DNA of 64,000 nt, from positions 496,001 to 560,000 of the forward strand of contig CP126201.1 in the NCBI GenBank assembly GCA_030272155.1. The letters are read 5' to 3'. Source of the DNA: Tetradesmus obliquus (taxonomy: Eukaryota; Chlorophyta; Chlorophyceae; Sphaeropleales; Scenedesmaceae). Under the pieces are notes generated by a model, which was not told the DNA's origin, searched no databases, and saw nothing but the letters and a program-made list of their open reading frames with translations. Numbering within the stretch: position 1 is the stretch's first letter; the number at the start of each line of letters is the position of its first letter. The position numbers and the translations under genes were made by a program. Below, one piece after another: positions 1 through 64,000 of this stretch.

Positions 1-665
1 GTGTTAAACAGCAGTTGTGGTTCGTGACTTTGATGCATCTGAACAAAGGCTAACCCTTGCCCTTGCAACAAGTGTTTTAAGCACCACTTTCCTTAGCAGT
101 GCACCACACAGCTTGTGTAGCCTTCGATAAGCACATGATCACTACAGCCAGCAAAGTTGGACCATATCTGCCGCCTCGCTCCCCCATGAAGTTCAGCAAG
201 CACTACCCAGCTGGCATTACACACGGCAGGGGTCTGCACTTAGAAGTTGTTGATGTCAGAACAGCTGTGTTGTCACTCACCCCCTTTAGGAAGCTCAGCA
301 TGCGTGCCACTGTGGCAGGCTGCTGCTGCGCCAGCAGCGGCATCACCACCTTGAGCGTGTCTGCAGGCACGCCTTGCACCATGGGAGTGAGAGCGTTTAG
401 CTCGTTGCTTGACAGGGAGAAGAAGGGCTGCAGCAGTAAAAGCAGCAGGGCCAGAAAACAAGCAGCAAACTGGGTGATGTGTACTACTGGTGCACACTCT
501 GGCACCAACCACGCAGTGCAGCAAGCAAGAAGCCAGCGCCACAGACTACTGCTGCAACAAGCCTGCCACAGGGACAAGTGTCATCAGACACATCTGGCGC
601 CGGCCACCATGCACCTTGAGCTCAGCAGGTGAGCGTGTGCCACTTAGGCTTTGCTGGACAAGTGG

Positions 666-716
<51 letters not shown>

Positions 717-2025
717 GTCCTCACATGCACCCACCTTGAGCTCAGCGGGTGAGCGTGTGATGACGACCTTGATGAGCTCCGGCAGCTGCTGCAGCTGTCG
801 CTGTCACTCTGCTGCAGCTGCCGCTGCCAAGTCCCATGAATCAGGTGCACCCCGCCCCCTTCCCCACACCCTCTGCCACCCACCTTGAGCTCAGCGGGTG
901 AGTGGGTGATGACGACCTTGATCAGCTCTGGCAGCTGCGGCAGCTGTCGCCATCACTTTGCTTCTGCCCCTGCTGCTGCCAACTCCTGTGAATCACATGC
1001 ATTTCCCTTCATCACTACCATCACCCACCTTTAGCTCGGCAGGGGAGCGTGTGATGACCACCTTGATCAGCTCCGGCAGCTGCTGCAGCTGCTGCAGGTC
1101 CATGTTCTTCAAGTTGGCTGACAGCCTGTTCATGGTGTCCACCAGGTTGACAGAGGCAGGCACCTTGCAGGCAAGCTCGCCCAGAGCTGCCACAAGCTTC
1201 TCATCGCCCAGGGCATCTCCCTGCGGTTGTTGAACACAAGACAATCAATTATGATGAAAGCGGCACACCATGGTACAAAATGAAAGAAGTATCACGAGGC
1301 AGCATTTGGATGTTATTGGATTAGCAGGGTGGAATGGTTGGCTGGCGGTGGCAGCTGGCTGGGTAACGGTGACACCAAGCGAATGACTAGCTGTTCTGGT
1401 GTATGCCGCAAGAGTCCAGCACAAATCAAGGGTGGCGTATGAAGAGAGTTTAAAAGCTGGCACGTCTGCCCCTGGATGCCATGCAATAATACATCTATGC
1501 ACCCACTGGTGCTGTGCAGGCAGCAGCAGCAGCTACAGCCAGCTACAGCACTGCCTGCTGGCAGTGTCCCATGCTGCTGGCAAGAGCTCAGGGGCTGAGA
1601 ATACTTACCGCAGTTGCAGGGTTGCAGTTCTGCGCCTGCGGTCAGTGAACGATATATGGTCAGAAAAGCACATTTGCAAAGCAGCCCAAGTGCAGCAAAG
1701 CGTGGGTTACTCGAAGTCGAGCCAACCGATGATGCAATACAACCGGAAAGTCAAGCTCGTTGACAACCGTTGTGGTTTCAATCATTGCCTGCCGCTGCTT
1801 TTGCTGCTTTGGCAGCGAGTGACTCCGGTGACACTGCTGCACAGCCCTGAAAGGGCCTCACCTGGGCACCTGTAAGCAAAAGCAAACGATTATGAGCAAT
1901 CTAATACTTCAAACGGCATGTTGATCCGATTCACAAGTGTTGCAGGTCGCTGCCTGCGCACCTGAAGCCAGCAGAACGCCCACCAGGCATACCACTGCCA
2001 CCAATTGAAACCCGCTCTTAAACAT
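1..2025 (-). CDS. Secreted repeat protein A (partial, runs off left edge)
   Basis: The ATG at 2025 opens a signal peptide (MFKSGFQLVAVVCLVGVLL, then ASGAQA as likely cleavage site). A very short exon (about 1609-1635, reading AQNCNPATA) follows, then a 64-codon exon at 1029-1220 (contains KVVITRSPAELK) and a 49-codon exon at 281-427 (contains GVPADTLKVVMPLLAQQQ). The last two have GCAG acceptors and GTGRGT-type donors and keep phase 0. The donor of exon 1 is unresolved, because GAQA matches GADA in the paralog and implies that the exon extends past the first GT. The gene is a tandem paralog of the gene at 3128-7949, with the same exon order. Probably extracellular or secretory pathway; the family is not recognised. 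The 3' part lies outside the window. Confidence 0.65.
610..1100 (-). repeat. Tandem copies of exon end plus donor, secreted protein A
   Basis: The segment encoding QLPELIKVVITRSPAELK followed by GTGGGT occurs in the true exon (about 1029-1090) and again near 880-945 and 732-795, with a shorter remnant at 612-640. The two larger copies keep the reading frame and the donor and have a CAG just upstream, so each could be an 18-codon cassette exon. A pure CTG tract (667-716) sits between the remnant and the next copy. Confidence 0.75.
667..716. repeat. (CTG)n microsatellite
   Basis: Uninterrupted CTG/CAG tract of about 50 bp in an intron of secreted protein gene A, between two copies of an exon edge. 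Confidence 0.95.
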
Positions 2026-3127
2026 CCTTGTGAAGTTGATGGAGTTGTGTTTGAAGTGTACAGCACAGGCAAGAGGGGGCAGACCGTGTGCACACACCTG
2101 AGCGAACCACGAATGTTTGCAGCAGCCAACAAATCAGAAGGATCAAAGAAGTATGATAGACTGATAGACCTCGATCATCGGTCAGCCCCTTCAACAGCTG
2201 CTGGCGTCTGCTTCAAAGCTGCATGACAGTCATGTGAGTGCGCCTGTTCAGTTCCAAGGAAACACTCGAGCGATAACAGCAGCTTGCATGCGGCTCACTT
2301 GTGGGATAAATGCCATTGTCGTTTCATGTTGTCGTTTTCACGGGTGCGACTCATGGAATCATGACACAGCAAGCATGGCTTGTGGCCGGCCCAGCCTGGC
2401 AGGACAGATTTTGCTCTAGCCTGGCAGCCCGTCACGGATCCTCCATCAGCAGTACTCATGTTCACAAGGAAGTGATGTACAGAGCATGGAATCACGACAT
2501 ACAGTCCACACAGACTGTTGGTGATTAATCCGGTGTTATACATGCTGAATTCGGCGCCACCTTGCCTGTTGCGGCACAGCTCAGCCCAGCAGTGGCCGGC
2601 CCAAGCCCAGCACCCTGAAAACCAGAATACGCCACACCACCCACCCCTCCTGCACACCACTGCCGCTGCCGCCCACAGTAACCCGCACCAGAGGCGCTAT
2701 GTTGAAGCTGCTGCCCCTGCTGCTGGCGGCAAGGATGCTCTATACAATGTCGCCCGATGCATTCACCCCAGCATGCCAAGCCGCAGGCCACCGACGCCCA
2801 CACCACCCGCGTTGCCGCCGCCAATTGTCACGCGCACAAAGGGCCCGATATTGAAGCTGCTGCCCCTGCTGCTGGCGGAGTGAGTGAGCGAGTGAGTGAG
2901 TGACTACCCAGGCAGCTCTGCAGCTCCTGGGTAAGTTAAGGCTAAGAGGGTGTGTGTGGCCAGGGGCGGGGCCCCTGGGCTCCACACCCTCTACCCGTGC
3001 TGGCGGCAGGGATGCTGGTCCCGATGTTTTCCACACCGAAATTGAACTTCTCCAGCAGCTGCAGCGCCAGCACCATCTGGCTAGCAGCGCAACAGGATCA
3101 CCAAGTAGCCTTTTGGATAAAACAGCA
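2026..3127. other. Intergenic: copies of the terminal exon of gene B and promoter of gene A
   Basis: The part from about 2680 to 3127 holds extra copies of the last exon of the gene at 3128-7949 (see the repeat entry). The rest, about 2026-2680, has no recognisable gene and should contain the promoter and 5' UTR of the minus-strand gene starting at 2025. A short GAGT repeat lies at about 2877-2904. Confidence 0.6.
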
Positions 3128-3260
3128 TTACCCCAGCAGGCCCAACCGCAGGCCACGCACGCCCACACCACCCGCGCTGCTGCCGCCCACAGTCACGCGC
3201 ACAAAGGGCCCGATGTTGAAGCTGCTGCCCCTGCTGCTGGCGGCAGGGATGCTGCTCTGA
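2683..3260 (-). repeat. Tandem copies of the terminal exon of secreted protein B
   Basis: The C-terminal coding block (GSSFNIGPFVRVT, then a Gly/Val-rich end and stop) of the gene ending at 3128 recurs at about 2770-2880, with LRLGMLG and a stop at the equivalent place, and again at about 2590-2720 as a diverged copy. The preceding segment encoding QMVLALQLLEKFNFGV also has a second copy at about 2990-3090. The copies could be alternative last exons or decaying duplicates. Confidence 0.7.
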
Positions 3261-5302
3261 ATGTTGTCCACGCCAAAATTGAACTTCTCCAGCAGCTGCA
3301 GCGCCAGCACCATCTGACCCGCGCTGAGGGAGTTGAGCAGGCGTGACATGGTGGCTGCTTGGCGGTCGCTGATGCTGGCAAACAGGTCGACCAGCATGCC
3401 CAGTTTGTCAGCAGGCACCTGCGGCCATGAAAGGCATGGCAGCAAATGGCACAGGGGTGGCGGGCAGGCGCGAAAGTCAACACCCCAGTTGATAACCAAT
3501 CCAACATGTTGGTGGCCGGCGCTGAGGGAGTTGAGCAGGCGTGACGTGGTGGCTGCCTGGCGGTCGTTGAGCCGTGCAAACAAACTGACCAGCATGCTTA
3601 GCTTGTCAGCAGGCACCTGCGAGCAGCATGAAAGGTGCCTGCAGGTCAATTATGCTTGCAAACAAGTCGACCAGCATGCCCAACTTGTCTGCAGGGACCT
3701 GCGGCCATGAAAGGTGTGGCAGCAAATTACACAGGGGTGGCGGGCAGGGGCAAAACTAAACACCCGAGTTGATTACTAATCAACATGTTGGTGGCCAGCG
3801 CTGAGGGAGTTGAGCAGGCGTGACATGGTGGCTGCCTGGCGGTCGTTGAGGCGGGCAAACAAGTCGACCAGCATGCTGAGCTTGTCAGCAGGCACCTGCA
3901 AGCAGCATGAAAGTTGCAGCAGCACATACGACCGGGAAGACAAGGCGGAACGACATTCAGCTCAATAACAATTATGACATGTTGGTGGCCAGTGCTTAGG
4001 GAGTTGAGCAGCCGCGACATGGTGGCTGCCTGGCGGTCAGTAATGCGTGCAAACAAGTCGACCAGCATGCCCAGCTTGTCTGCAGGCACCTGCAGCCATG
4101 AAAGGTGTTGCAGCAAATCACACAGGGGTGGCGGGCAGGGGCAAAAGTCAACACCCCAGTTGACAACCAATCCAACATGTTGGCGGCCGGCGCTGAGGGA
4201 GTTGAGCAGCTGCGTCATGGTGGCTGCCTGGCGGTCGTTGAGGCGGGCAAACAGACCCACCAGCATGCTTAGCTTGTCAGCAGGCACCTGCAAGCAGCAT
4301 GAAAGGTGCAGCAGCGCATACAACAGGGACGACAATGCAGAACGACATTTGTCTCGACAACATTTATGACAAGCTGGTGACCGGCGCTGAGGCAGTTCAG
4401 CACGCGCGACATGGTTGTTGCCTGACGGTCAGTAATGCATGCAAACAAGTCGACGCAGCATGGCCAACTTGTCTGCAGGGACCTGCGTGCAGCGGGCAAG
4501 TTGCAGCGGCAAACAAAAGCAGCGTCGGAAAGGAGGTGTGGTGTAACTTCTGTCCCTGTCATTGGCATCTGAGCAGCACCGGATTGGCAATGCCTGCAGC
4601 ACCTCAACGCAACTGCTTCATCAATCCCATATATTGATCAGTGTGATGAAACTGACTCACATTGCCTGTGAAATAGACCAGCTTGTTCAGTGTCTCCGCA
4701 TCCTGGGCTGCCAGCGTCTTCAGCTGTGCCACGACCACATTGGAGTCGGCGCCTTGCACTGACAGCAGCGCAGCCAGTGTGGGGCGCGGGATGCGGGCGA
4801 TGGCCTGCATCACACACACACACACACTGAAATCGCATGAACCAGTAGGCACGAACGTGACATACAAACAGCACACAAAACCACAGGGTCGTTGCCACTG
4901 AGCATGCTATGGTGTGCTTGTAAGTGCGGACTCCACCACTCAAGCTGCAGCATTGGAAGCCAGTTACAAACACGTGCAGCCCTGTCGGCCCCTGCAGACA
5001 CCCACCATGAGGACTTCTGGCTGTGTGGTTGCCAGCAGGTCTGCAAATGCTGGCAGGCTGGCCAGCGTTGCGCTGCTCTGCTTGTTCAGCACATCCAACA
5101 GCCGACCCATCACAGGGGCCAGCTTTTCAGGCGTGAACTTGCACACAGCAGCGCCCAGGTCAGCACTGGACAGCAGCTCAGCACCAACCTCAAGACCCTG
5201 TGACGCAGCAGCAGCATGACAAAAGCTGTGCTTAAGTGCTGGTGCACACAGCAGCAGTGTAATATCAACAACAGCGCTGCTTTGACCTCGCACATCTATG
5301 GG

Positions 5303-5360
<58 letters not shown>

Positions 5361-6251: not shown

Positions 6252-6299
<48 letters not shown>

Positions 6300-6460
6300 G
6301 CTCGCGCTCACCCCCTTGAGGAAGCTCAGCATGCGTGCCACTGTGGCAGGCTGCTGCTGCGCCAGCAGCGGCATCACCACCTTGAGGCTGTCTGCAGGCA
6401 CGCCTTGCACCAGCGGCATCAGTGTGCCCAGCTCCTTGCCTGACAGGGAGAAGAAGGGCT

Positions 6461-6492
<32 letters not shown>

Positions 6493-6658: not shown

Positions 6659-6697
<39 letters not shown>

Positions 6698-7949
6698 AAG
6701 CAGCTCTTACCAGCCAGCTGCCAGCCACCTGCGGCCCAAGCAGGCGCATACACATAGTACACTACAGCACAAACAAACAACCCTCCACTCACCTTGAGCT
6801 GCGCTGGCGGCCTGCCGATGGCCAGCTCAGTAACTTGCGGCAGCTGCTGCAGCTGCTCAAGTGGCAGGCTGCCAAGTGTCGACGTAAGCTTGCCCATTAC
6901 TGCTACCAAATTGACGGAGGGTGGCGCCTTGCATCCCAGCAGGGAGATCTTGTCTGTGAGGCTGGCATCCACAGAGGGCAGCAGCCCAGCCTGCAGCAGC
7001 AAGGCGCAGCAGTACATGCATTAGAACAGGGTAGAGAGTGGTCATGAGGTTTTGTTTGTCAGGCTGACATCCACTGAGGGCAGCAGCTCAGCCTGGCAGC
7101 AGAGAGCAGCAGTACATGCATTAGAACAGGGTAGAGAGTGGTCATGAGGTTTTGTTTGTCAGGCTGACATCCACAGATGGCAACAGCCCAGCCTGGCAGC
7201 ATCAGGGAGGAGTGCATGCAGCAATACAGGTGTAGAGGCGGCATAAGGTTTTGTTTGTCAGGCTGGCATCTACAGAGGGCAGCAGGCAGCCTTGACAGCA
7301 GCAGGCAGCAGTGCACGCAGCTATTTGGGCAAAGAGGGTGCGTATGAGACCTTGTCTGTCAGGCTGGCGGCCACAGGCAGCAATGCAGGCAGCAATGTGT
7401 GTACTACAGCGGCAGCGGCTGTATGCTGTTGCTCAGCAACAGCAGTAGCAGTGCTACTGCTGCTGCGGCGCAGTACAGCATCGAGGAGTGACAGCTGCTC
7501 TCTGCAGGCTGTTGATACCCTGCTTACCGCTTCTGCCGGGTTGCATCCTTGTGCCTGCACAGCACAACATACGGGTGAATGGTTGGTTGTTCATACAGCA
7601 GCTGGGCGGGAGAGAGGCGTGTGGGGGTTACCCGATAAGCATGTCGCTGCAGGAGGGATCCGGAACATAAATAAAATCAATTTAAGTATTTGACTATGTG
7701 CTGTTTAGATGATGCCAGTGTCGTTCCTCTGGTGCAGCGCATTTGAATGCGACCTGCTGCAAGTGAGACAGCCACTTCGATACCAAATCGCCTTACCGCC
7801 GCCCCTGCACCATCAGAATGAAAGTTGGTTGTGGTCAAGGTTCGTTTGCTTTCTGCATACAACAGCTCTTCAAGTGCAGGTGCGTCCGCACCTGACAACC
7901 ACAACGAGACCAGGGAGATCACGATCCATTTGATGCCGACAGGATGCAT
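3128..7949 (-). CDS. Secreted repeat protein B
   Basis: The ATG at 7949 starts a signal peptide (MHPVGIKWIVISLVSLWLSGADA). Well-supported exons are 6793-6990 (66 codons, contains GKLTSTLGSLPLEQLQQLP), 6312-6458 (49 codons, PFFSLSGKELGTLMPLVQG), 5499-5963 (155 codons, Gly-rich with LGKLGGIGFGGG), 5006-5197 (64 codons), 4661-4804 (48 codons), then an array of about 34-residue modules beginning VPADKL, and a last exon ending LRLGLLG at the TAA at 3128. A short exon reading AQGCNPAEA lies near 7525-7550. The five long exons all keep phase 0. The 49- and 66-codon exons match exons of the tandem paralog at 1-2025. The modules look like alpha-helical hairpins (VPADKLxMLVxLFARxxDRQ). A secreted role is inferred from the signal peptide; the family is not recognised. 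Splicing between modules is unresolved. Confidence 0.65.
3310..4482 (-). repeat. 196-bp tandem array of VPADKL modules
   Basis: Module starts (minus strand) fall at 4482, 4287, 4089, 3895, 3698, 3616 and 3418. All but one are spaced 194-198 bp; the copy at 3698 is truncated to 82 bp. Each unit has about 100 bp encoding VPADKLxMLVxLFAR..LLNSLSAG plus about 95 bp of linker or intron. The copy at 4482 has one extra base after ATGCTG, which shifts the frame to a stop. The linkers in 3410-3616 and 4090-4287 have no stop in the module frame, so read-through coding is possible. Confidence 0.85.
5304..5359. repeat. (CAG)n microsatellite
   Basis: About 18 CAG units, uninterrupted, in an intron of secreted protein gene B between the exons at 5006-5197 and 5499-5963. 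Confidence 0.95.
6252..6299. repeat. (CTG)n microsatellite
   Basis: About 16 CTG units immediately next to the donor of the 6312-6458 exon of secreted protein gene B. Confidence 0.95.
6961..7400 (-). repeat. 100-bp tandem repeat spanning an exon start, gene B
   Basis: Units begin near 6961, 7061, 7160, 7261 and 7361. Each contains a version of the exon start encoding LLPSVDxSLTDK and the adjoining upstream intron, including the string GAGGTTTTGTTTGTCAG. Only the unit at 6961 continues into the full exon (6793-6990). The others carry the acceptor but read into stops. Confidence 0.85.
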
Positions 7950-8668: not shown

Positions 8669-11600
8669 CTATGCTGCTGCATCAAACGCAGCGCCAAGGC
8701 CTGCCAGGCTACCGCCACCACCCAGGTCATTGCTGCTGCTGCTGCTGCGCCGCCGCTTGCCGCCTGGGCTCTGCCTGCCCAAGCCCAAGCCCAGACGTGG
8801 GCTGATGCCCTTCCTCCTGACCGCCACATTGTTGGCCCTGGGGCTGCCGCGCAGAGGGCTGCCTGTAGATGCGCTTGCGTCATATGCACTGCTGGTTATA
8901 CATGTGCTGCTGCTGGGGCATGTGCTGTTGCCGGAAGCTGCGCTGTCGGTGCGCTGCAGGGCAGCCAGCGCCTTGGGCAGCAGGTGCGCTGGCAGTGAGG
9001 GTGGCATGATGGGTGGCAGCTTGGCCTCAGCCTCAACGAGCTCCTGCAGGAAAGCATGTACAATGTACAGTGAGACACCCAGTCAGCTGATGCTGCAGCA
9101 CGGGAAATGCAGTGTAGCAATGCCCTAAGGCTTTTTGCAACGCAAGGGCTCTGAAGGAGCAATGTTGGACATGCTTGCAGGAACAACTGCTGGTATGAAC
9201 GAATCGGTTGGCGCCCAACCACTCAGCCGTGCCATCTAGTGCCTGGTTGCTACGCACCTTGGCCACCAGCTTCAACACCTCTGGCAGCAGCACGGTCAGC
9301 CCCTGGGGGGGCACTGGAAGCACTGCAGCTGCTGGCCTGGGGCTGCTGATGTACGTGATGACAGGCGCCTGCTGCTGCTGCTGCTGCTGGATGGTCTCTG
9401 CTGTGCTATCTCCTGTTGTGGTTGCTGCTGTTGCTGCCTCTGCTGCCTCCTGCGCAGCCAGTGCTGCCAGTGCAGCATCTTGCTCATCATCGCTGTCAGC
9501 GCTAGCGCACACATTGCTGCTTGGCTGCGGCCAGCGGCCCTTCCAGCTAGTGGTGGGCATCAGCCGCACTGCATCCTTGGCTGGATCCAGGCCCCACATC
9601 GCCAGGCAGTCATCCAGCACCAAGCGGGGGCAGATGCAGCCAGCTGCAGGGCGCGCAGCAGCACAAAAGCAGCATAGCGTCAGCCGGCTCAACAGCACAC
9701 TGCAGAACTTGCTGCCAGGTCAGCAGCGAGCAGGACCCACATCATCTCCGAGATACTGAGTCAGTCACAGGCAACACGCATCATGAGGATGACATGTTGC
9801 TGCCGCAGCAACACAGCAGCACAGGCTGTGCTGCAGTGCTTGCAGGAAGAGCCAACCATGTGCAGCAGTGCATTGGAGTGTAACCACTCGGCACACATCA
9901 GCGCTGATGAGCAGTCTGCTGGCTATATTTGCTGCGCTGTGTGCTAGGCAGCCTGCAACATCCCATCCAGTAGTGCTTACGTCCAGTGTGCCGCAAGCCG
10001 GTGAATGGCGCCAGGCTCTTGACACCCTTGCAGCTGGCATACGTGCCGTCGTTCTTGAAAGCGTTGTGCTCCACGAAGACCCTGCCGCCATGCTCGCAGC
10101 TCAGCACCTGCTGCAGGATGTCTGCGATCTTGGCCACATAGCCCCGGCTGCCACAGCTCGCCAGCCGCAGCTCCACCTCTGTGTGCCTTGCAGGACAAAC
10201 AGCCAGGCAAACAGCACATCAGGAAGCTGCAGGACACCATGGCAATCATCAGCTGGTCTAGAACTTGCAGGAGAGATTTACACTGCCTGCAGGTGCGACA
10301 CAGTGTACGCTGCTCGCTGCATGCATCATGCTTGCAAGGACATGACCAGCCACGGCATCCTGATATACTCACCCTGCAGAACTAGTGCAAGCAGCTCCTT
10401 GCCAGCTTGGCGTGCCGTGCTGCCGTCTCCTGCAGTCCAGGTCGGCTGCCAGCTCATAGTGGATGTAGGCCAGAATGGTTATCTCTGCAGGGATGACAGA
10501 CATGGACTGCAGGCAGCAGCAGCAGCAGCAGTGAGACAACAGTAACAGCTGTTACAGCAGTGTTGAATACGGCACAGCAGGATGCAGCTGCAAGGCAAAT
10601 CACTAAGCTGTAGTTGCAAGCAGGCATAGCAGATCTGTGCAGGGGCTGCACAAAAATGGCAAGCAGAAAGGCATGGTGCTAGCAAGCTTGTGGCCAGTTC
10701 TGCCTGCCCAATGCAACTATTGCAAGCTGCTGCTAGATAATGTTCCTCACCTGCATGCAGGTCAGGGTCGGCTTGCCTCCTGAAGTGGTGGCGCCTGACT
10801 CACTCCAGCTGCCGTACATGCAGATGTAGTGCGTGAGGGTACCATTTGCGTCCCACATGGGAGCAATGAACTCTGGCATGGGTCGAAGGAAAGCTGGGTT
10901 GGCCTCAGGCAGCCACATGGTGCACGTCCTGCAAGCAGATGGATGTGCAGAAGGCATGCAGCAGCAGATGGCACAGGTCAGGCCAGCCACTGCACCACCA
11001 TGCTAGCGCTTGCAAGCAGCACACTGCAGACAAAACAGCACACGGATCACTGGCAGCGCAGCACAAGACGGCCACATACAAACACAGCATGTGTCCCACC
11101 TGCCCTCCACCTCTGCTGTCGGCATCCATGTTGGCCAGGGCTTGCCATGATCATGGGCATCCAGTGCGTCATCGGTCCACTTCCAGAACTGCTCTGCCAG
11201 GTTGTAGAACTTCTGCAGGTCTGGATCCTCAAACTTGCTGGTGCCAGACTTCGCTGCAGCAGCAGAGCAGCAGGAGATGCCAGCAGACACAGTAACACCG
11301 CACCGCGTCTCAGCTGCACCTGGCAGTGCTAGTTGTGGTGTTGACTGTTTATGCGGCGCACACTAACAGCTAACGGTGCTTGCAGGAAGAGCCGCCACTG
11401 GTGGGGAGAGCACTGTTGGAGAAGCAATTCGCTGGATGTGTGTCCTGGAAGCACCCAGCTGATGCCATGCTGCTCTCACCATCAAATGCATCAGACAAGA
11501 AGGTTGAAGAGACCAGTGTCTGGTCAATGTCCAACAGCAGCTGCAGATTGGTTGTGGCTTGGTGCACCGCAGGACTGCCTGCAGGACAGTACACATGGCT

Positions 11601-25400: not shown

Positions 25401-25628
25401 GGGCACTAACAGGCCCCCCGGGGTGGTGGTGAAGGCCTGGGTGGCTGAATGTGCTGGCAGGGCTGCACAGACGGCCCCCTCTCGGCTCAAAAAACAGGAG
25501 ATGCTGCAGCTGACATACGGCAGTGATGCCCAGCAGCAGCAGCAGCAGTGGTTGCAGGATGGAGATGCTGAGGAGGTGATGGCGCTAATTGCACAGGCAT
25601 CAGGTGACGTCAGTGACGCTGCTGCTCT

Positions 25629-38760: not shown

Positions 38761-38793
<33 letters not shown>

Positions 38794-41449: not shown

Positions 41450-41517
<68 letters not shown>

Positions 41518-41883
41518 GCATAGTCAGCCAACAGCTAGCTTTGCAGCCGTAGTTCTACCTGCAACACTACAGTCCAACTGGATGCGCGGCACATGCAATC
41601 CTTGGCGAGCAGCCGCACTAGGGCAAGACCTGCAGGACACACTTGTGACTACACCCAGCCAGGTGGGTACAGAGCTGCTGCACAGCAATCCCTTAGTGTG
41701 CTGCTGGCTGCTGTGAGCAGCGAGGCCTTGAATTCTGACCATTTGCACCGCCTGCCTCACCTGCACCTGCTGCTGCTGCGCTGTGCTCCCCAGATTGTAG
41801 CGGATGCTGCGCTGAGCCAGCTGGAAGCTTACTGCCTGGGCCTCAACACCACGCGCCCTGATGCTGTATGACGCCAGCTGATC

Positions 41884-41936
<53 letters not shown>

Positions 41937-42535
41937 TGTGCTGCCTGCGCAGGCCCCAGGCCACCATCAGCAGCACAGAGCCGATGCCACAGCCGATGTC
42001 CAGAGTGTGGCTGATGCATGCTGATGCACCAGGTGCTGCAGATATTTGGTGGCCACCTGCTGCTGCTGCTGATGATGTTGATGATGATGATGTGGCGGCG
42101 GCTTGGTTCATTGCTGCTGCCTCCTGTAGGGCTACATATGCAGTCATCATGTCATCCATTGACCAGCTGCAGCAGCAGCAGCCGGCAGCAAGCAGCAGCA
42201 TGGCGTTGATGCGTGACAGCTGCTGGAGGAAATGTGTGCCGTTTAGCAGATGCAAAGCTGTCAGGCTGAGCACAGGTATGGCAAGGAAGACACATGTCAG
42301 ATGTGTGCGCGCTTGGGGATGCATACTGGAGCTCATTCAGAGGTCTAGCAACTGGCACACCTCACTGTTGACTATGCACTGCGCTGCACTGCTGGCAGCA
42401 ACAGGCTGTGCAGGACTGCAACTTGCAGTTGTCAGGCCAGCCACTCACCGGTGCCCATCTTTGAGCTGAAAGATGCGCCAGTCGCCAGTCAGATACGACA
42501 GCGTCTCATTGGCCCCAGGCTGCAAGCTAGGGTTA

Positions 42536-47063: not shown

Positions 47064-50032
47064 GTAGAACAGCAGCCAGACACGCTGCAGCAGGGGCAGT
47101 TGTCAAGCAGCAGCAATAGCCACAGACCAAACGGTGGTGCTGCAGAAGGCAGTACAGGGGCAGCAGCAGCAGCAGATGAGCTAGACCCTGGCGATGAGCA
47201 GCAGCAGCAGCTGCCTGATGACTTTGACTACAAGGGGGAGGTGCCGGACCACGACCACAGCCAGAAGCGGCAGGAGCTCCTGATATATGCGATACCGCTC
47301 ACACGCGGCAAGGTCAGCAGGCTCGCAGTGTAGCAAGCTAGCAGGCAGTGGGCAAGCAGGCAGTGCCAGCGTGAGGGCGGCGTGCATGCTGTGTTGTTGG
47401 TCTTTTCTTTTCTGGCCAGGGTGCTTATTCTCATGTATCATCTTGTGCAGTTTTGATGGAAGCAGGGGTCAGGTGCAGCAGGCTGGCAGCTGGAGCTTTG
47501 GGCTGTTGTCACTCCCGTTCATTGCCGCTGCGGGTGGTCATTACACACTATGCGGATTGCAGTCGTGCTGTGCATGTGTGGCGAGTGCAGTGGGCATGCT
47601 GTTCTTGATGTCAAGGTGTTCACTTGTTGCTTGCAGGTGATTTTTCTGCCGGTGTGCCCCTGGCGCACGGAGCCTGAGCAGGCCAAGGGCTGGAAGAAGG
47701 CAGTGGTGGGCCACGTAAGTCATGTGACAGTTATGACATGTCATTCAACATAAACACACGGCAGCAGGGTACAGGAGACTAGCTGCAGTGGTGCCAACAA
47801 TCGCAGTGTCATGTGCTCCTTGAGAAAAGCAGTCGAGCTGGTCACAGTTGCTGTCCGCATTTGCCCTTGATGCAGCACCGTGCAACTTGTTACATATCTG
47901 TACATGTGGGTCTGACTGTTTGAAGCTGCTTACGCACGCATCTGACTGGTTGCCAACTGGGTCGCTGCTGCTGCTGCTGCAGGTGGGGCGGGTGCAAGGC
48001 GAGGCGTCTGAGCTGTGGGAGAAGTTTGCCACCGCGGAGCAGGGCACCGTGGCCAACAAGGTGTACAGGTGCGGCGGCAGCAGCAGCAGCAGCAGCAGCA
48101 CAGTGCATGCATACCAGCCAGCAGCAGTTTGGTCGTCATTTGTTTTTAGCTGTTCTGTGGCATGATGCCAGTGGCATCAAGCTTGGCTAGCGTGTGCTGG
48201 ACAGTGTCTCCTCCAAGGTGGGAGGTGACAATTTGACGGGCTGTCATTGTTGTTTCTCTTTGTGTGGCTGCAGGCTGGGCAAGCGCGTGCTGGACAGCAT
48301 CTTCCCTGAGGAGCGGCTCATGCGCGGTGTGCCCAAGGACATCAGCAAGGTCATCATCCACCACACAACCTTTCTTTTGCCCTCCCTGCTTTGCGTGCTC
48401 ACACAGGCTGGGCAAGCGCGTGCTGGACAGCATCTCTCCAGAGGAGCGCTTGATGCGTGGTGTACCCAAGGACATCAGCAAGGTCATCATCCACCATCCA
48501 AGCCAGGTCAGCCCAGAGAGCATCATGGAGCAGATGCACACCATGACCAAGAGCTATGGACTGGCGGCGGTGGGCAGGGCGGCAGCAGCCACTGTGATGC
48601 TGCCGCTGGCGGTTGGCGTGGACCTGGTCATTCTGCCGGGGCCGCAGGTGCGCTGCCGCTGGCTGTCTGCTTGCTGGCACTTCTAGTTGCTGCAAGGTGC
48701 AAGCAGTCATGCAGAGGGCTTCTGATGTATGCAGAGCAGCGGTAGCAGCAGGTGGTGGATGTGGACGTGGTGATACTGCCAGGGCCGCAGTTGCGCTGGC
48801 ATTGACTGGGTTGATAGGTTGTGTGGAACCTCGCGCAATCTTTCTCATGACCCTCATGTCTGCCAGACCACCACACATGCATGATTTTTTTGTCTCCTCA
48901 CCGTGCAGGTGCTGACCTACCACACCATGTGGCAGCTGTACCGCAACACGGCACTGGTATTATCCTTGCTCTGTTTTGCCACTGCTCTACTCTGCCCTCC
49001 CTGTGCCATGACCTACATGTTGCCCATCCCTCTTATTGCTATTGCACACTGTCTGCGCCCTGCAGGTGCTGACTTACCACACCATGTGGCAGCTGTACCG
49101 CAACACGGACAGACTGACGTGATCACACATCTTTTGTGTCTGTTGCTGGACCATTATGCATCCATCTTGTGCTTGTCCTCTTCTCACCGTGCAGGTGCTG
49201 ACCTACTACACCATGTGGCAGCTGTACCGCAACACGGACGGCGCGCTGGGCACCACGCGCATGACCAAGTTCATCACACAGGGCGGCAGCAGCGAGAACA
49301 TCAGGGTGAACTACGCCATTGATCCCAGGTGAGCCAGCCGCACCAGGCATTGTTACTGTCGCATTATGCATATGTACATCCGCATGACATGTTTGAGCAC
49401 AGCTCCTGCAGTTCGCATCGCTTTGAAGGTCAGCTGCTGGAGGAGTGCTTGCAGGAACAACACGTGCCTGCCTCACCTGCCGGCCTGCTCTCTGTTTGCC
49501 TTTCTGTAGGCTGGACTGTTACTACGACTCAGCGCTGGATTGCCCAGAGGGATTGCTGCCAGCAGACGACATCGACGCACTCGTGGCTGACCTGCGTGAG
49601 CCCAGCCTGCAGGAAGCGCTGCACTCGCTACTATGTCTAACACTCATGCCTGCCTGCCTTCCTGTCTACCCACCTGCCCTGCCTGCTGGCCCTGCCTGCA
49701 ATACCCTCCTGCCATACCTGGTTGTGGCTGAATGCCCCCATTCTCTGCCTGGCCGCCTGCCTTTCTGTAGGCTGGACCGCTACTACGACTCAGCGCTGGA
49801 TTGTCCTGAGGGAGTGCTGCCAGCCGACGACATCGACGCGCTCGTGGCTGACCTGCGTGAGCCCAGCTTGCAGGAAGCGCTGCACTCGCTGCGCACCAAA
49901 GCGCTGAGGGACAGCAACCGCAGGACCAGCAGGGGTGGGGACGAGTATGTTTCGCTGCCGCCTGCAGACCCTGCTGCTGCGCCGAGCGGCTTTGGCGGTG
50001 GTAGCGGTGGCGGCAGCAGCAGCTTGATTTGA
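46117..50032 (+). CDS. Mitochondrial K+/H+ exchange-related (Mit_KHE1-like) protein
   Basis: Seven exons in phase: 46117-46273, 46591-47312, 47637-47714, 47983-48068, 48407-48647, 49195-49328 and 49771-50032, about 559 residues. The first 280 residues are low-complexity and acidic with long Gln runs. The conserved part begins ELLIYAIPLTRGK, then IFLPVCPWRTEPEQAKGWKKAVVG, LGKRVLDSISPEERLMRGVP, LPLAVGVDLVILPGPQ and LTYYTMWQLYRN. This layout matches fungal and plant proteins of the mitochondrial K+/H+ exchange-related family (yeast Mrs7/Ydl183c group). Its molecular role is poorly known even in yeast. Exons 5, 6 and 7 each have extra copies nearby, so the gene may produce alternative exons; the model uses the copies that keep both splice sites. 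Confidence 0.75.
47010..47063 (+). repeat. (CAG)n microsatellite, coding polyGln
   Basis: About 18 CAG units in exon 2 of the Mit_KHE1-like gene, encoding an uninterrupted Gln run between acidic segments. Confidence 0.95.
48180..48490 (+). repeat. Three copies of an exon start (Mit_KHE1-like exon 5)
   Basis: CAG plus codons LGKRVLDSI..PEERLMRGVPKDISKVIIHH begin at 48275 and at 48407 (the copy used), with a decayed fragment at about 48181-48240. The 48275 copy encodes SIFPEERLMRGVP and then runs into intron sequence without a donor at the matching place. Confidence 0.85.
48620..48790 (+). repeat. Copy of an exon end with the donor lost (Mit_KHE1-like)
   Basis: GTGGACCTGGTCATTCTGCC..GGGGCCGCAG|GTGCGCTG (exon end 48647) recurs at about 48758-48800 as GTGGACGTGGTGATACTGCC..AGGGCCGCAG followed by TTGCGCTG. 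The G-to-T change removes the GT donor from the copy. Confidence 0.8.
48903..49240 (+). repeat. Three copies of an exon start (Mit_KHE1-like exon 6)
   Basis: CCGTGCAG or CCTGCAG followed by GTGCTGACCTACCACACCAT and GGCAGCTGTACCGCAACACG occurs at 48909, 49066 and 49195. Only the third continues to a donor (49328). Spacings are about 157 and 129 bp. Confidence 0.9.
49505..49890 (+). repeat. Duplicated last exon (Mit_KHE1-like)
   Basis: TTTCTGTAG followed by an exon encoding LDxYYDSALDCPEGxLPADD and LVADLREPSLQEALHSL starts at 49510 and 49771. The copies match over about 125 bp. The first then reads to an early stop; the second continues to the 50032 stop. Mutually exclusive terminal use is possible. 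Confidence 0.85.
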
Positions 50033-54736: not shown

Positions 54737-57452
54737 CACAGACACCACCAGGGCAGCTGCTGCAGCAGCAGCAGACGCATTTGTCAGGCCGTGGTTTTCA
54801 CCACCACTTCTGTTATTACGCTGGATATTTGTGCAGCTGCGGCTGCAGGAATGCAGCAGCTTTTTGGCTAGGCTCTGTGATTCGGTCGCCGCGGTGTGGG
54901 CACTGGCCAGTCAATTGAGCTGGTCATGAGATCATTTTGGTGCATCTTGATCTTTTGCAATCTCTGGAGCAGCATACATACAGCACATGCGCAGCATGGC
55001 TGCTGAGGAGACAGCAGCAGCAGAAGCACCACCAGCAGCAGCAGCAGCAGCAGCATGAACCCGGACAAGTCATGGCAGGCGCAGCTATATGTCCCCAGCA
55101 TGGCAGCTGTGTGCTGCATCAGGTGCTGGTATGCAGAGCAGTGCGCCAGCGTCTTTCACCGTTTCGTTGCCTTGCAAGCGCAGCTGCACATGCATCGCAC
55201 GCTGACGGCTTTTCCAACAGTACAATGCTTTTGTGATTGCACCGGCCACCTTGGCAGAGCTTTACGAGTGCGGGTTTGCCTTCACCTTGTGTCCTGCATA
55301 ATGTCCTGCAAGGCTTGTGGTGCAATGACGGAGCCACAGCCAATGCATGGAGTGGCCGCCTGAGGAGGCATGTGGCAGGGCGGGCCATTTTTTGGGAACG
55401 TTGTTCTCAAGGTTGTGACCACGTTCTGAGTGTCTGGCTAATGTATTGCGGTTGTTAGGCATATTTGGGTGGTGCTGCAAACACATTGCGAGGATGTTAG
55501 GACTCTATGATGCAGGGATGATTCTTTGTTGCGTGTTGTAGCTGCTGCGTGTGCTGCATTCGTGCATTGCCCTGAAGCCATGGAGTGTGCAGCTGCGGCC
55601 TGCAGCAAGCGTTTAGCATTGGGGTTGAGTGCTGGGCGTGTGGCAATCGTATGGGGTTGGCATCAAAGCTGTAGGCTCCACTCACGAAACATGATGTGCT
55701 GTCTGAGCTGCTGCTGTTACGTAACACACGCAGCGCATACTGGTGCTGCTGCTGAACACACTTTCTTTATTGTCACAAAGAAGTTCTGCAAGTAGCCAGT
55801 CTAGCGGGGCTGCAGCCCTTGCTTTGTGTATGCATGCAGCGTATCCTCCTAGGTTCCGCTTCACACCGGCATGTACGCATCACTGCCACAGCATGCATGG
55901 CGGCTTTGCTCATGCAGCAACCATGTGCGCAGGGTTTCTTCCCTGTTTGTTGCAGTGGTTGCGTTGGAAAGCCTGCAGCCGTTCAGCATCTGTGTTGCGT
56001 CTTTGGTAAGCCGGGCTGCGCTAGGCAGCTTGCCTTGACAGGCTGTGTCAGGTGTGTGACTGGCAACTCATCACTGTGCAAGTGCAGGAGAGGTTGTGCA
56101 TGACTCCGACATCAGGCAGTTTTGCACCAGTGGTTTTGGCGGGTTTTTTTTCAGTGTGGCGTCCCTAACCCGCCAATGACAGCACGCGTGACGGGTTGGC
56201 AGACGTGGACATAACACAAATCACATTACATACGCGTTCTTTGTTATACCGGTGAGTGGTAATGTGCACACTATTGCAGTGCCATTCATACACATGTGTC
56301 TTGTGCGCTGACTTGGTGCTTTCAGAGCTGTGGTGTACAACAGATGTGGAGTGTGCCATCTTTGGGCGCTGCATCATTTTGGCTGCAGCCGCCAGCTATC
56401 AGAGTCGTATGTTGGTAAGTGTCGTAGAACAGGTTGTGGCCTTCAGCTCACAATTTGTTGGCAAAATATTTGGCGATATTTGGCGAGATTAATCTGCTGC
56501 CTTTTTTGTGATGTCAGAGACGACTTTGTCTGGTCATGCTGCTCTGCTGTTGAAAGCATATCTGGCTATGATCCCTCTTGATGAAAGTCCTCGATGAATG
56601 TGATCAACCTTGCTCCCTGCCTGTTCACAGCCTCCTACGAGGCAGGCCTGCCAGCTACAGCTGTAGTGCAATCAGCCTTGTAAAGCCTGCCACTGGCTAT
56701 GATAGCAGCCGACAGTGCACATGATAAGTTACCATCATGATATCATTATCATGCCAGCAGTCGCGGCAGCCATCTGTCGCATTAACGTTGCTAACGCGCC
56801 GGGCGTGTGGCCAGCTAGCTGGCGGCAGCAATATCGATGGTCGCAAGTTGCCACCAACAGCCTGAACAGCCAGGTTATACTCCGCACAGTGCTAACAAAG
56901 CCTGCGAAGCTCCAGTGCGTTAGAGCTCTACGGCAAAACACATTAGTATAGCTGCAGGACTGGAAACCTGCCGCCAACTTGATTTTGAAAAACACCATGC
57001 CTCACGCAGCAGCCTAGCCAGCCGCCGCCCTAGCACAAACATCTACTGCACCTTCAGCCGATGCCCCAAACACAAACATCCACTATGCTGACCACCTTAC
57101 TCCCTAACTCACTGACATCGACTGCACTGCCAGGGCTGCGAAACTGCCTCAGGCACCAGCTCAGACAGCCGCCGCCCTAGCACAAACATCTGTTGTTTAG
57201 CACAGCCATCTACTGCACTGCCAGCCACAGACATCTACTGCACTGCCAGCCATCTACTGCACTGCCAGCCGCTGTAGCCTGCCCTGAGTGCTGAAGCGCT
57301 GCCTGTTCTGCTGCGCCAAAATCTGCCTGCAGCCAGCCAGCCAGCCAGCCGCGGTTCCTAACAGGCTGCAGCACATCTATCCCAATGCCAGCCGCTGCAC
57401 CCTGCCCTGAGCGCTGAAGCACTGTCTGTTCTGCTGCGCCAGAATCTGCCTG

Positions 57453-57485
<33 letters not shown>

Positions 57486-57511
57486 GCCGTTCCTAACGGG
57501 CTGCCGCACAT
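54737..57511. other. Gene-poor convergent intergenic region
   Basis: 2.8 kb between a plus-strand stop and a minus-strand stop. Short open frames are present, but none has family similarity, a signal peptide or consistent splice context. The right end (57230-57511) holds tandem copies of the OPR gene's terminal segment and CCAG tetranucleotide runs. The middle shows nothing recognised. Confidence 0.55.
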
Positions 57512-57580
57512 CTATCCTAATGCCAGCCGCTGCAGCCTGCCCTGAGCGCTGAAGCGCTGCCTGTTCTGCTGCGCCAGCAA
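57230..57580 (-). repeat. 115-120-bp copies of the OPR gene terminal segment
   Basis: The block GCCGCTGCAGCCTGCCCTGA, then GCGCTGAAGCGCTGCCTGTT and CTGCTGCGCCA, occurs at about 57524 (end of the coding region), 57390 and 57271, joined by CCAGCCAGC runs. It is the coding end plus stop of the minus-strand gene, repeated downstream. Confidence 0.8.
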
Positions 57581-58237: not shown

Positions 58238-58282
<45 letters not shown>

Positions 58283-59660
58283 AGATCATGCAGCCAGCCT
58301 CGTGACTGCAGCAGCGCCGCCTGCAGCCATCGCCCCGACACGCCACCCGGCACATCTGCACCAGGTTTTAGCATTCCCAAAGCCTGCAGGGACTGCGAGA
58401 GGCTCTGCGGGGTGAAGTCCTGCATGCGTGCTGCTGCTGCACGGTACCAGCACTCCATGAAAATGAGGTCTGGGGTGTGGTTGAGTGCTGCCATGCACCA
58501 CAGAAGGCTGGAAAGCTCTGCTGGCTGCATCTTGTCGATCTGGCGACGGCATTCAGCTAAGAATGCTGTGGTCCAATTTGGGCTTGGAAGGAGGCGGGGC
58601 GTGGCTGCTGCTGGCTGCTGCGATGATGCGGCTTGACAGCCCCTGCCGCTGCTGGTACTGCTGCTGTCTGACGCAGGCAAGCAACCTGAATCAGACAGGT
58701 TTTCTCCTGGTGACCGCTGCTGCTGCTGCTGCTGCTGCTGCTTCTCAAGGGGCTGGTGCGCATGATCAGCAGCCTCTGTTGCAGCTTGCTGCACTACATT
58801 CAGCAGTGGCTGGTCCATCTGGCTGGTCTGATCACCCTCTGGCACAGCTTGCAGCATGCCAGGCTTCCCGGGCTGGTGCTGGTGCTGGTGCTGCTCCTCA
58901 GGGTGCTGGTGCACATGACCAGCACTCTCTGCTGCAGCTTGCAGCATGCCAGGCTGCCCCTCTGGCAAGCAGGGTGGTAGCTGAGTCAGCGCAAAGATGA
59001 AGCGCAGCAGTGCTGGTGCATGGCAGTCTGCTGAGCCCCAGTGTCCCCTGAAAGCAGTGAGGCAGCGCTGCAAGAAGGATTGGCTGAGCGGCCTGCGCCA
59101 CACTGCCAGCGCAAACATGAGGTTGGCTAGGTCCTGCAGGGGCAGCAGTTGCAGGACAGGCAGAACAGCAGCAGCAGCAGCCGCAGCCAGCAGCATCAGC
59201 AGCTGGGCAGTATAAGTCGGGGCTGGTGGGAAGTTTGCATCAATGCAGCTGAGTCAGTGCAAAGATGAAGCGCAGCAGAGCTGGGGCGTGGCAATCTGCT
59301 GAGCCCCAGTGGCCCCTGAAAGTAGCGAGGCAGCGCTGCAAGAAGGATTGGCTGAGCGGTCTGTGCCAGACTGCCAGGGCAAACATGAGGTTGGCTAGGT
59401 CCTGCGGGGTCAGCAGTTGCAAGACAGGCAGAACAGCAGCCGCAGGGCAGGCATGACAAGCTTCAAAAAGAGCGAGGGTGCTTGCATGCAGCGGCGTGAT
59501 CTTCAATAATGCTACAGCCACTTGCAGTTGACGTTGTGTGACGTGCACCATAAAATAGATGATCCACTGCAGAAATTGGCTGAGCGGCCTGCACCAGACT
59601 GCCAGGGCAAACATGACGTTGGCTAGGTCCTGAAGGGACAGCAGCACACATGGCAGGCGT

Positions 59661-59710
<50 letters not shown>

Positions 59711-60698
59711 GGCAGTACAACTCGGGGCTGGTGGGAAGTATGCATCGATGACACAGCGACACAAGCAGTGGAGCATCAAGCAAATTTACTCGCAGACAAG
59801 CACATACTCTACTCTGACCAGCGGACATGCCGCAGCCCTACCTGTGCCCCAAGCCTGACAGCTGCGCAGCCGCCTCATCATTCAGCTGCTGCTGCCACGC
59901 CTCGTTTGGTGCATAGCCCCAATGAGCCAGGCCAAACGCCAGGCAGGCAAGCGCGTGCGAACAGCCGGCCGCTGCTGCGCTGCACGCAGCCAAGCATCAA
60001 AAACATTGCAACCAACAGCAGAAATCCACACGAACAGCTACCGCAGAAAGCAGCGGCTGCGCTACAGCCCTACCTGTGCAGTGAAACCTGACATCTGCGC
60101 AGCTGCTTCATCGCACAGCTGTTGCTGCCACGCCTCATGCGGCGCATAGCCCCAATGAGCCAGGCCAGCAGCCAGGCAGGCAAGCGCATGTGGAGTGGCT
60201 GCTGACAGCTGGCCGCTGCTGCTGCGGTCCGCTGCTGCTTTCAAGAGGGCTGGCATGTGCAGCTGCAGGCGGGCTAGGCTGTAGATGGCCCTGCAAGACA
60301 GAAGGATGAATAAATAAAACACGTTGAGGAATGCTTTTGTGACGATGGGAAAACGGTGTGAGGTGCAGCGAGCTGCACAAAACATGCAAGAAAAAGCTGT
60401 GCGCTGCCTTGCAGCAAAAATCAGCAGGTGCGGCAGCCAGGGGCACAACCAAGCTGAAGAGACAGAGGGCCGAGGCTGGAAAATCAACAAGCACAGCAGT
60501 AGGCTGCTGCCTACAGGAATGGTGGTTTGAGTCCAGCAAGCAGCAAGGAGCTCATGAAAGCAATTGTACACAAACTTCTGCATTTCATCTGTCAGGCTTG
60601 ACCTTCGCACCTGGCACAGTCCGTTACTGAAGCCTGCTCCATGTGCGCTGCCAGTAGCTCCGCTGCCATTGCTGCAGGTACATGGTAGGCCTCTTGAA

Positions 60699-60748
<50 letters not shown>

Positions 60749-62135: not shown

Positions 62136-62925
62136 TCAAGACGTTGCTGCAGCTTCCAGCTGCAATGAAAACTTTTATAATGTTCAGTAGGAACGAATGT
62201 GACAAACAAGATGTGAAGCGAGCCTTGAACAGCAGACACAGTGAGATGAGACGACGGTCTTCCAGCCTGGGTTATGTCACAGTGCAACAACTACAGTAAG
62301 CTCCTGCACAATGTAAAGCATTCATTCCCTTTTTCAAAGTCAAGCTGTAAAAACACGGATCGGCAGCACCACGAACAAACAGCCCTAGACACTGCCATGA
62401 CTAAACACCACACTCACTTCACGTGACAGCTGCTTCAAAAACCATAAAGATGTTGTGATAGATTGCATAAAGAGCTCGATCAGATGACTGTGGTTCTGCC
62501 GAAGCAGCTTTGACCATCAAGGCGGGACTCACCTTACCAGTATCAACGCCGACATGATCTATTCACGCTGCCGAGAAAAGCAATAAGCCGATTTTTCAAT
62601 TTGCTATCCGGATCCCCGTGGGTGTTGCGAACAGACAAGTGAGTGCTGCAGCCTGGCCATCAGCCAGCTCACAACCTGCTGTCGTGACATCAAAAGCTGC
62701 TCTACTGCAGCACTCGAACCTGCAGCCAATACGTTACCGGTCCTAATATGATATAAAAAACAATGCTTTCAGTTTGCTGAAGCTCCTGCACACAGTGCCT
62801 GTCCTGCAGCACAGTTCAAGCGCCACAACCCTGAATTGTGCTGCCACAGGTTCTTGTCGGTCCACCAGCACCTCTGAGCAGAGCTCCAGGCTCGTTGGCC
62901 AAACGAGAAGCTTCAGCTTGCCAAC
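62136..62925. promoter_or_regulatory. Divergent intergenic region, AT-richer
   Basis: Separates the OPR-like gene (minus) from the membrane-protein gene (plus), so a candidate bidirectional promoter of 790 bp. It is visibly poorer in CAG than the genes. No named element was found. Confidence 0.5.
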
Positions 62926-64000
62926 ATGGGGTTAGGGATGAGGCGTGCCGTTGGCACTACTGTAGCAGCACAGTTCCAGCATGACAATACAGAGGTAATA
63001 GCCAGCGTCAACTTCCAACGCAACAGCAAGCAGGTAAGCAAGCAGCTGCAACGTACCACCCGCAACAGAGAATTTATCGGCTGCATGCTGCTCCTGCAAG
63101 CAACATGCATGCCATGCTAAGCTGCGTGTGCTGTAGACAACACAGCAGGTGCTTGCATGCCTTTCCTGCAAGCTGCCAACTCACCTTAGCCTATCATCAT
63201 CATCATGTTACCATTTAACTCACCTTAGCCTATGTATGTACTATCTATGTCACCAGCAGATGTGCTGCCCTCTCAACCTGTTGCACCCTGCAGAAAGGCG
63301 ATGATGGAGAGGATGGAGTTCCTGTGCAGCCAAGGCTGATAGTCAGAGCCATCCATGCCAAGTGGCAGGCGCAGCTGGAGAAGTGGGCAGACTACCGCAG
63401 CCTGTTTGGGCTGATAGCATTCATCACTGTGTTCCTGGGGGTGCTGTATGCACAGCGCGGCGCAACAATCGCCTACTCTGTGCACTCGACCATCGCTTCA
63501 GTTGTGCTGCCCGGCAGTGACACGCTGCAGAGCACAGATGATGTGTACAGCTGGCTGCAGAACCTCCTACAGGTGAGCAAAAAGTTCATGTGGCTGCAGC
63601 AGTCATGTCATCTCACATGCCAGAAAGCACTGGCACGGCAGCGCAGCACTGGGGGTGTGACTGCGCTGATAAACATATAAAAAGCCGAACAAGCAACGCC
63701 AGGGCATGGCAGCGGCGCTTTTCCTGCAAGCAGTAACTGCAGCGTCATGCTCTCCTCATGCAGCGTAAGTCATGCTAGAGCCAGAGCAGTTTATGCACAA
63801 CTCTGCAGCCGCCGCTGCGAAACCTGAAGTTGTATTTCTGTGCTATGTCACCTCTCAAAACAGATACAAAGCACTGACCACAATCTATTTGCCGGATGCA
63901 GAATGTCTGGAAGGACCCCAACTGCGGTGATGGCATATGCGAGGCGCCGTTTGAATTTGCAGCTTTCAGCCGCTTCGGCTGCAAGGCAGATTGCGGCCGC
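62926..64000 (+). CDS. Predicted membrane protein, N-terminal part (polycystin/TRP-like?)
   Basis: Exons 62926-63036 (ATG at 62926, donor GTAAGC), 63295-63573 and about 63900 to the window edge, all in phase 0. The product has a basic cytosolic start (MGLGMRRAVG), one clear membrane segment (SLFGLIAFITVFLGVLYAQ), then a loop with VYSWLQNLLQNVWKDPN and a Cys-containing module (CGDGICEAPFEF then FGCKADCG). A short N-terminus, one helix, then a large extracytosolic loop with VYSWL resembles the start of polycystin/TRP-type channels, which are common in green algae; this is inferred from the first 130 or so residues only. The rest lies beyond the window. Confidence 0.6.

Follow-up and report, generated by a model that had tools for sequence, protein, structure and literature searches.

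The window analyzed here is a stretch of 64,000 nucleotides from the green alga Tetradesmus obliquus (assembly GCA_030272155.1, contig CP126201.1, positions 496,001 to 560,000; G000:C11:496001-560000 in our numbering), within a genome of 17 contigs and 104.66 Mb. Its intron-rich genes carry imperfect direct copies of their own exon edges, each comprising the end of an exon with its splice site and, in some arrays, part of the adjoining intron. We report that such copies occur throughout the sampled genome, that they cluster at predicted splice junctions, and that the spare copy usually lies on the intron side of the working one. The G+C content of the window is 0.57; a table for T. obliquus lists 57% G+C, 7.8 introns per gene and a mean intron of 462 bp (PMC5966456).

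Genes and exon-edge repeats of the window

The window was analyzed together with fourteen 20-kb blocks from elsewhere in the genome (344 kb in total), which were placed at round coordinates irrespective of content, at 2.00 Mb on contigs C1-C10 and at 1.00 Mb on C11-C14, with C15-C17 left out. A splice-aware gene finder trained on the same sequences predicted 60 genes with 722 introns and 32% coding sequence, with consensus sites resembling CAG/GTGAG (donor) and CTGCAG/G (acceptor); exon ends without homology backing stay predictions, and the finder tends to fuse adjacent genes. Exons mentioned in the list below come partly from an earlier model version that lost genes at block starts, and all junction, intron and spare-copy tests used a later version. 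Pfam accepted five of the ten window proteins or protein parts submitted, namely DHBP synthase (E 1.3e-82), protein kinase (5.6e-53), Myb (5.2e-30), Mit_KHE1 (7e-14) and GLTSCR1 (4e-9); no family passed its cut-off for the remaining five. One gene matched FAST_1 at an E-value of 0.00051, below the family cut-off, and is called FAST/OPR-like here, the OPR-like part of the label being our assumption.

Self-BLAST of the window (E<=1e-8, less than 1.5 kb apart) gave 57 direct and 0 inverted matches, which merged into 24 arrays covering 11 kb. Tandem Repeats Finder (TRF) detects the arrays as well, for example 6.4 copies of 112 bp at 44024-44747. A reading made from the sequence alone had proposed more than twenty imperfect tandem arrays whose copies differ by substitutions and short indels, and both the number and the kind of difference were reproduced. 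Its period range of 36-270 bp was right at the lower end (a 36-bp array lies at 16712-16818) and too narrow at the upper, where periods reach 496. The main arrays and pairs are as follows, with the supporting method in brackets where one was recorded.

728-1091, no strand assigned: 149-bp tandem array, 2.5 copies (TRF, self-BLAST)
2653-4511, minus strand: complex array of exon-edge units with periods of about 82/197/280/391 in the 2581-7949 gene; peptide VPADKL..NSLSAG repeated (TRF, self-BLAST, gene models)
6944-7393, minus strand: 102-bp array; acceptor edge four times in the intron preceding the exon that ends at 6990 (TRF, lenient extension)
22652-23074, plus strand: donor-edge copies, periods 81/217/298, after the long exon ending at 22686 (self-BLAST, lenient extension)
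24128-24460, plus strand: 130-bp array with exon edge (TRF)
25184-25443, plus strand: acceptor-edge pair of the Myb gene, spare 25184-25286, working 25341-25443, period 157; 11 synonymous and 5 nonsynonymous differences
25929-26225, plus strand: 143-bp contiguous pair across an acceptor of the Myb gene (TRF)
26244-26548, plus strand: donor-edge pair of the Myb gene, working 26244-26361, spare 26430-26548 (with a stop)
27776-28079, plus strand: 117-bp array at an exon end (self-BLAST)
32151-32521, plus strand: donor/exon-end pair, period 251
36264-36876, minus strand: 413-bp spaced pair, exons 13-15 of the 35927-42458 model (self-BLAST, gene models)
37606-37902, minus strand: RibBA donor edge with two downstream copies; the pair 37606/37848 has intron-gain geometry (donor and acceptor at the same offset)
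38505-38901, minus strand: exon start of RibBA (DHBP synthase), working 38505-38577, spares 38655-38727 and 38833-38901 (self-BLAST, Pfam, PDB alignment)
40723-41133, minus strand: 156-bp array within the model, upstream of its RibBA part (self-BLAST)
44010-45144, minus strand: 112-bp exon-edge/intron array of the GLTSCR1-domain gene, overlapping TRF rows of 6.4 and 4.4 copies (TRF, self-BLAST, Pfam)
48271-48496, plus strand: acceptor-edge pair of the Mit_KHE1-family gene, period 133; 6 synonymous and 2 nonsynonymous differences (Pfam)
48893-49239, plus strand: acceptor edge three times (VLTYYTMWQLYRNT), Mit_KHE1-family gene
49497-49890, plus strand: acceptor-edge pair, period 261, 94% over 133 bp, spacer unlike its flanks; 6 synonymous and 2 nonsynonymous differences
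56998-57577, minus strand: 147-bp pair (56998-57191) and 122-135-bp array (57247-57577) at the 3' end of the FAST/OPR-like gene (TRF, self-BLAST)
58719-60222, minus strand: exon-edge repeats of the FAST/OPR-like gene at 58719-58946, 58979-59750 and 59833-60222 (self-BLAST)

Number, period and position of the local duplications

After removal of pairs more than 1200 bp apart or of more than 30% low complexity, 110 non-redundant pairs were kept; the window accounts for 26 of them (0.41 per kb) and the 280-kb sample for 84 (0.30 per kb). Local repeats were present in 13 of the 14 blocks, at per-block densities of 0 to 0.7 pairs per kb; the phenomenon is genome-wide and non-random, and the window, whose density the sequence-only reading had considered exceptional, is not special. 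Direct matches within 2 kb greatly outnumbered inverted ones (234 versus 13), and the copies had diverged to varied degrees by substitutions and indels. Periods fell at 100-160 bp in 69 of the 110 pairs, with a mode of 120-130; three were below 100 and the remainder longer. Strictly adjacent copies made up 43 pairs and copies spaced by at least 25 bp made up 67, the contiguous and spaced pairs having a common period range. Direct orientation, proximity and a common period are what local tandem duplication gives.

Almost no sequence is common to different genes. Only 1 of 58 window matches at E<=1e-8 joined two genes (88%), and two further short ones appeared at E<=1e-6, so that the earlier statement that genes share no repeat sequence held with these exceptions. 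The accompanying view that the arrays arose by duplication in place and not from one mobile element was borne out; a single sequence at many unlinked genes, as introners or mobile introns would give, was not found in the window. A 185-bp match at 88% between positions 264-448 and 6295-6479, in two neighboring genes, probably reflects an old tandem gene duplication.

The position of the copies was compared with 400 random placements, pairs being classed by the copy that holds most exon. Among all pairs (n = 98, after omission of 12 of the 110 lying outside gene spans), 84 held a splice junction, against 53 +/- 4.2 under the null, a value reached in 0 of 400 placements. The enrichment was strong for spaced pairs (51 of 60; null 24.6 +/- 3.7, reached by none of 400) and weak for contiguous arrays (33 of 38; null 28.7 +/- 2.3, reached by 19 of 400). 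In 36 of the 60 spaced pairs there was a single junction whose intron tail measured at most 20 bp (null 5.3 +/- 2.1). To lessen circularity, the second copy of every spaced pair was masked before gene prediction, and 5 of the 67 pairs, which lay outside gene spans, were omitted. In this masked test, whose null is somewhat lenient since the more exonic copy is kept while the null places single intervals (the unmasked test treats both alike), 54 of 62 pairs held a junction (null 19.9 +/- 3.6, maximum 30) and 39 were of the edge type (null 3.6 +/- 1.8, maximum 10); two had no exon (null 28.7 +/- 3.8), and 12 of 15 pairs held a junction in the window alone. Placement at splice junctions, which had been proposed against random placement, is thus supported on the predicted gene models of the 344 kb.

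The orientation of the 39 edge-type pairs was regular: of 21 acceptor pairs, 20 had the spare edge upstream of the working edge, and of 18 donor pairs, 15 had it downstream, and therefore the spare lies within the intron. Typically, both copies hold a site of the same type and the one toward the intron is the spare, by which an existing intron gets longer (one of the two tallies behind this dropped overhangs above 30 bp). Intron gain by duplication across AGGT-type sites, an outcome mentioned in the sequence-only reading, would instead show a donor in the copy lying upstream and an acceptor at the matching offset of the one lying downstream, the new intron being one period long; this geometry occurred in 2 of the 110 primary pairs and in two secondary matches (window 37606/37848 and C6 5663/5871), and is not the rule. 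The best account of these data is that longer introns are the main product and AGGT intron gain is a minor outcome.

Structure and decay of the spare edges

When introns were examined on their own, 52 of 327 introns of 130-1500 bp contained a same-strand copy of their own donor or acceptor edge (score >=42), compared with 0 for the reverse complement of the same introns and a rate of 0.000 for edges of other genes. Of 55 genes with at least three exons, 27 carried an edge copy or several (6 of 9 in the window), well short of the "nearly every multi-exon gene" of the earlier reading. Copies of exon segments fell off with distance from the edge, from 33/349 through 8/224, 3/147, 1/98 and 1/70 to 0/50 on the acceptor side, and from 30/330 through 9/214, 1/129, 0/81 and 0/51 to 0/31 on the donor side, as duplication units of about 125 bp would give. 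Copy-bearing introns had a median length of 362 bp compared with 260 bp for others, and of 187 bp once the outermost periods were subtracted.

Contiguous arrays include part of the intron, and spaced pairs mostly consist of the exon edge with a few splice-site bases. Under lenient extension, 15 of 94 copies stopped short of the junction; among the 59 outermost copies that reached it, the intron extent was at most 20 bp in 26, 21-48 bp in 20 and more in 13. An anchored comparison of intron flanks in 37 pairs gave no residual similarity on the acceptor side (z 1.3) and slight similarity on the donor side (z 3.0 over 80 bp). Three candidate features of the copies were rejected. A fixed insert size as the primary quantity did not hold, since exon-copy and spacer lengths were uncorrelated (r -0.14), and the period was tighter than in permutations only for subsets with short spacers, and there only by inter-quartile range (p about 0.02); the full 39 pairs showed no such narrowing. 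CTG/CAG repeats were not enriched as a trigger (0.25 in affected introns versus 0.35 in length-matched ones). A mobile element in the spacer was not apparent against the sampled blocks, where matches at E<=0.01 were at most 30 bp long. With short words at E<=1, 25 spacers gave 268 far matches (a raw count) and 12 near ones, a few of the latter being internal repeats. Two spacers were searched genome-wide: one matched itself alone, very common words being skipped, and the other had four more places at 74-83%.

Most measures of spare copies resembled neutral decay. The GT was intact in 25 of 30 donor spares and the AG in 24 of 29 acceptor spares (49/59 together), a rate of loss about equal to that of other mismatches, as neutral decay would give. 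Periods showed no frame preference (24/28/20 for remainders 0/1/2 modulo 3). The nonsynonymous fraction of contiguous spares (14 pairs) was 0.544, close to the 0.573 expected for an untranslated copy facing a constrained one.

Paralogs supplied a comparison for introns in general. Two tandem transporter genes in block C8 (L017/L018) match in their exons, most matches ending 0-15 bp outside predicted exon ends and two ending 39 and 48 bp outside, where the predicted end may be wrong. Their coding differences at codon positions 1/2/3 were 30/396, 10/397 and 72/396 (0.076/0.025/0.182), and five introns of this one paralog pair did not align (10 windows, best z 3.2); sharp exon-edge homology can therefore be the result of ordinary divergence here. 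One exon (4312-4447 versus 11190-11325) had 0 differences in 136 coding bases, compared with about 8-13% in six other exons, a sign of exon-limited gene conversion. In both transporters one and the same exon start is found again at a similar distance, 80 and 76 bp (4495-4530 and about 11383-11401, the second found by eye), and hence certain spares may predate the gene duplication or have been maintained by conversion.

An LHC peptide from this genome matches chlorophyll a-b binding proteins. One LHC gene (L032, C16:1494650-1495900) has spare copies at several exon edges. It contains an intron where five other paralogous places match uninterrupted; this intron holds two spares of an acceptor edge, spaced by about 113 and 122 bp, and, by eye, spare donor edges as well. 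The copies are not in Rogers order, and either gain or loss of an intron may lie behind the difference. Peptides from the RibBA and LHC models that skip the spares showed no large insertion relative to PDB chains (RibB, LHC).

Explanations for the spare edges

We favor, at what we consider about an even chance, an explanation in which frequent local tandem duplication of about 125 bp, filtered by splicing, lengthens introns whose turnover is fast. It draws on the observed frequency, period, orientation and geometry of the copies, their mostly neutral decay, and the unalignable introns of one paralog pair. The genome would often make short direct duplications, displaced by about 100-170 bp. A duplicated piece inside an exon would usually be lost because the protein is broken. 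Where an exon edge is included, the mRNA would be restored by splicing at whichever copy is still attached to the remainder of the exon, and the other copy would turn into intron; with acceptor spares upstream and donor spares downstream, each event would add one period to intron length. Repeat pairs might then exchange unequally and re-amplify to contiguous arrays, and the intron half of an old duplication would soon be unrecognizable through fast turnover. Constraint on the working copy would keep the exon half recognizable for longer, so that old duplications would come to resemble bare exon edges plus a few bases of the splice site. The causal step may be replication slippage or staggered-break repair. 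We infer this step, as well as the order of events, the unequal exchange and the general speed of intron turnover.

Several observations weigh against this explanation. Intron segments beside junctions had copies in 1.6-2.6% of introns >=250 bp (4/254 to 8/279 over the five intron segments tested), well below the 9.1-9.5% of the first 50 exon bases; pairs without exon were below chance (5/98; null 20.3, unmasked); and of 65 spaced pairs, 61 had a spacer unlike both flanks (z<5, with nine at z 3-5; counted by eye from the rows). Among ten pairs of at least 95% identity, seven had no intron half, which a young tandem duplication is expected to have; the other three were one pair at z 5.2, one at z 4.9 and the C6 pair at 16211, where the intron is duplicated too. 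Best-scoring short segments may look younger than their true age. Fast intron turnover in general is extrapolated from one paralog pair. Finally, spaced spares (35 pairs) had a nonsynonymous fraction of 0.400 against 0.580 expected (z -5.5), a synonymous excess that is not explained by simple neutral decay and that could come from deep allele coalescence, exon-limited gene conversion or partial use of spares. A rival is exon-edge-specific copying, possible in our judgment though rather unlikely, in which template switching at splice-site-like motifs, or repair templated by pre-mRNA or cDNA, pastes an exon edge of 30-130 bp, together with a few bases of the splice site, into the intron some 125 bp away, the spacer being original intron. 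The short intron tails, the scarcity of intron-only pairs, the spacers unlike their flanks and the one that matched itself alone genome-wide all agree with it, as do RibBA and C14:3505, where the outermost copy begins near the splice site though inner units match across the intron. However, contiguous arrays with duplicated intron occur at the same period, 33 of 59 outermost copies run more than 20 bp into the intron under lenient extension, the C8 paralogs show similar edges, and affected introns are not CTG/CAG-enriched. A stronger form, which we regard as doubtful, makes exon edges the preferred template of continuous local copying, with 30-130-bp modules and their splice signal pasted in and introns steadily rebuilt; if true, it would explain both the long introns and the unalignable introns between paralogs with about 90% identical exons.

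The synonymous excess could also mean that spare edges are used, as alternative acceptors, donors or part-exons or in a regulatory or protein function, and are kept by selection, which we think improbable. Decoy donors score 6.0 compared with 5.9 for working donors, A-poor, T-rich sequence precedes eight decoy acceptors, as at real intron ends, partly inside the copied tail, and the RibBA spares lie in one open frame. Acceptor decoys, in contrast, are weaker (4.9 versus 6.5), GT and AG are lost at about the rate of other mismatches, no frame is preferred, two edge pairs contain stops and others radical changes, and contiguous spares look neutral; this largely neutral-like decay would argue against general use, with the synonymous excess leaving room for some. 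Exon-limited gene conversion or recombination with diverged alleles or paralogs, keeping exon parts alike and introns different after old primary duplications, would account for both the unrelated spacers and the synonymous excess, and the identical C8 transporter exon is an example; but this is a single exon, in paralogs rather than exon-edge copies, and the process supplements the favored duplication without replacing it, so that as the whole explanation we would hardly expect it. Assembly or consensus artefact, which the sequence-only reading had also argued against, is close to negligible, with nothing found in its favor and given variably diverged copies, repeats in 13 of 14 other blocks and a fixed geometry relative to genes.

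Where introns get their sequence is a long-standing question, as the sources can seldom be recognized. About one in six of the introns examined (52/327) still reveals its source, its own neighboring exon edge. A density of 0.30 pairs per kb corresponds very roughly to 30,000 local duplications genome-wide, an extrapolation from 280 kb and not a count. This makes the genome a test bed for intron lengthening, for splicing choice between near-identical adjoining sites, and for the mutational origin of duplications of about 125 bp.

Small tandem duplications as such are already known. In intron gain by tandem duplication, as described in PMC4974935 for ATP2A1 (Hellsten et al.) and potato RdRp, a gene-internal duplication is likewise rendered harmless by splicing and supplies the splice signals; the alga differs from these cases in having the same kind of site in both copies, so that an existing intron grows, with donor and acceptor at the same offset in 2/110 pairs. 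Internal gene duplications (Gao and Lynch 2009, as cited in PMC4974935 and PMC3443670) also lie within genes, whereas the algal copies are exon edges on the correct intron side, with a period peak near 125 bp and in 52/327 introns. The dual-specific splice sites of human UBC, as presented in PMC10809524, lie in a tandem repeat of whole coding monomers; the algal units are partial, frame-neutral and decaying. Introners, as outlined in PMC9860276, are also a genome-wide source of intron sequence, but the algal copies derive from the neighboring exon and share almost no sequence between genes. In the open-licence literature (subscription papers being outside this scope), we recognized no genome-wide description of exon-edge copies in green-alga introns, which is no proof of absence.

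For annotation, spare exon edges draw false exons into ab initio gene models, as in the models here. In the RibBA gene, the exon, both spare edges and the intron between them (38160-39026, minus strand) form one stop-free stretch of 288 codons. CAG/CTG-type runs are very common throughout the window, in exons (poly-Q, poly-A) as well as introns, and about 4% was masked as low complexity.

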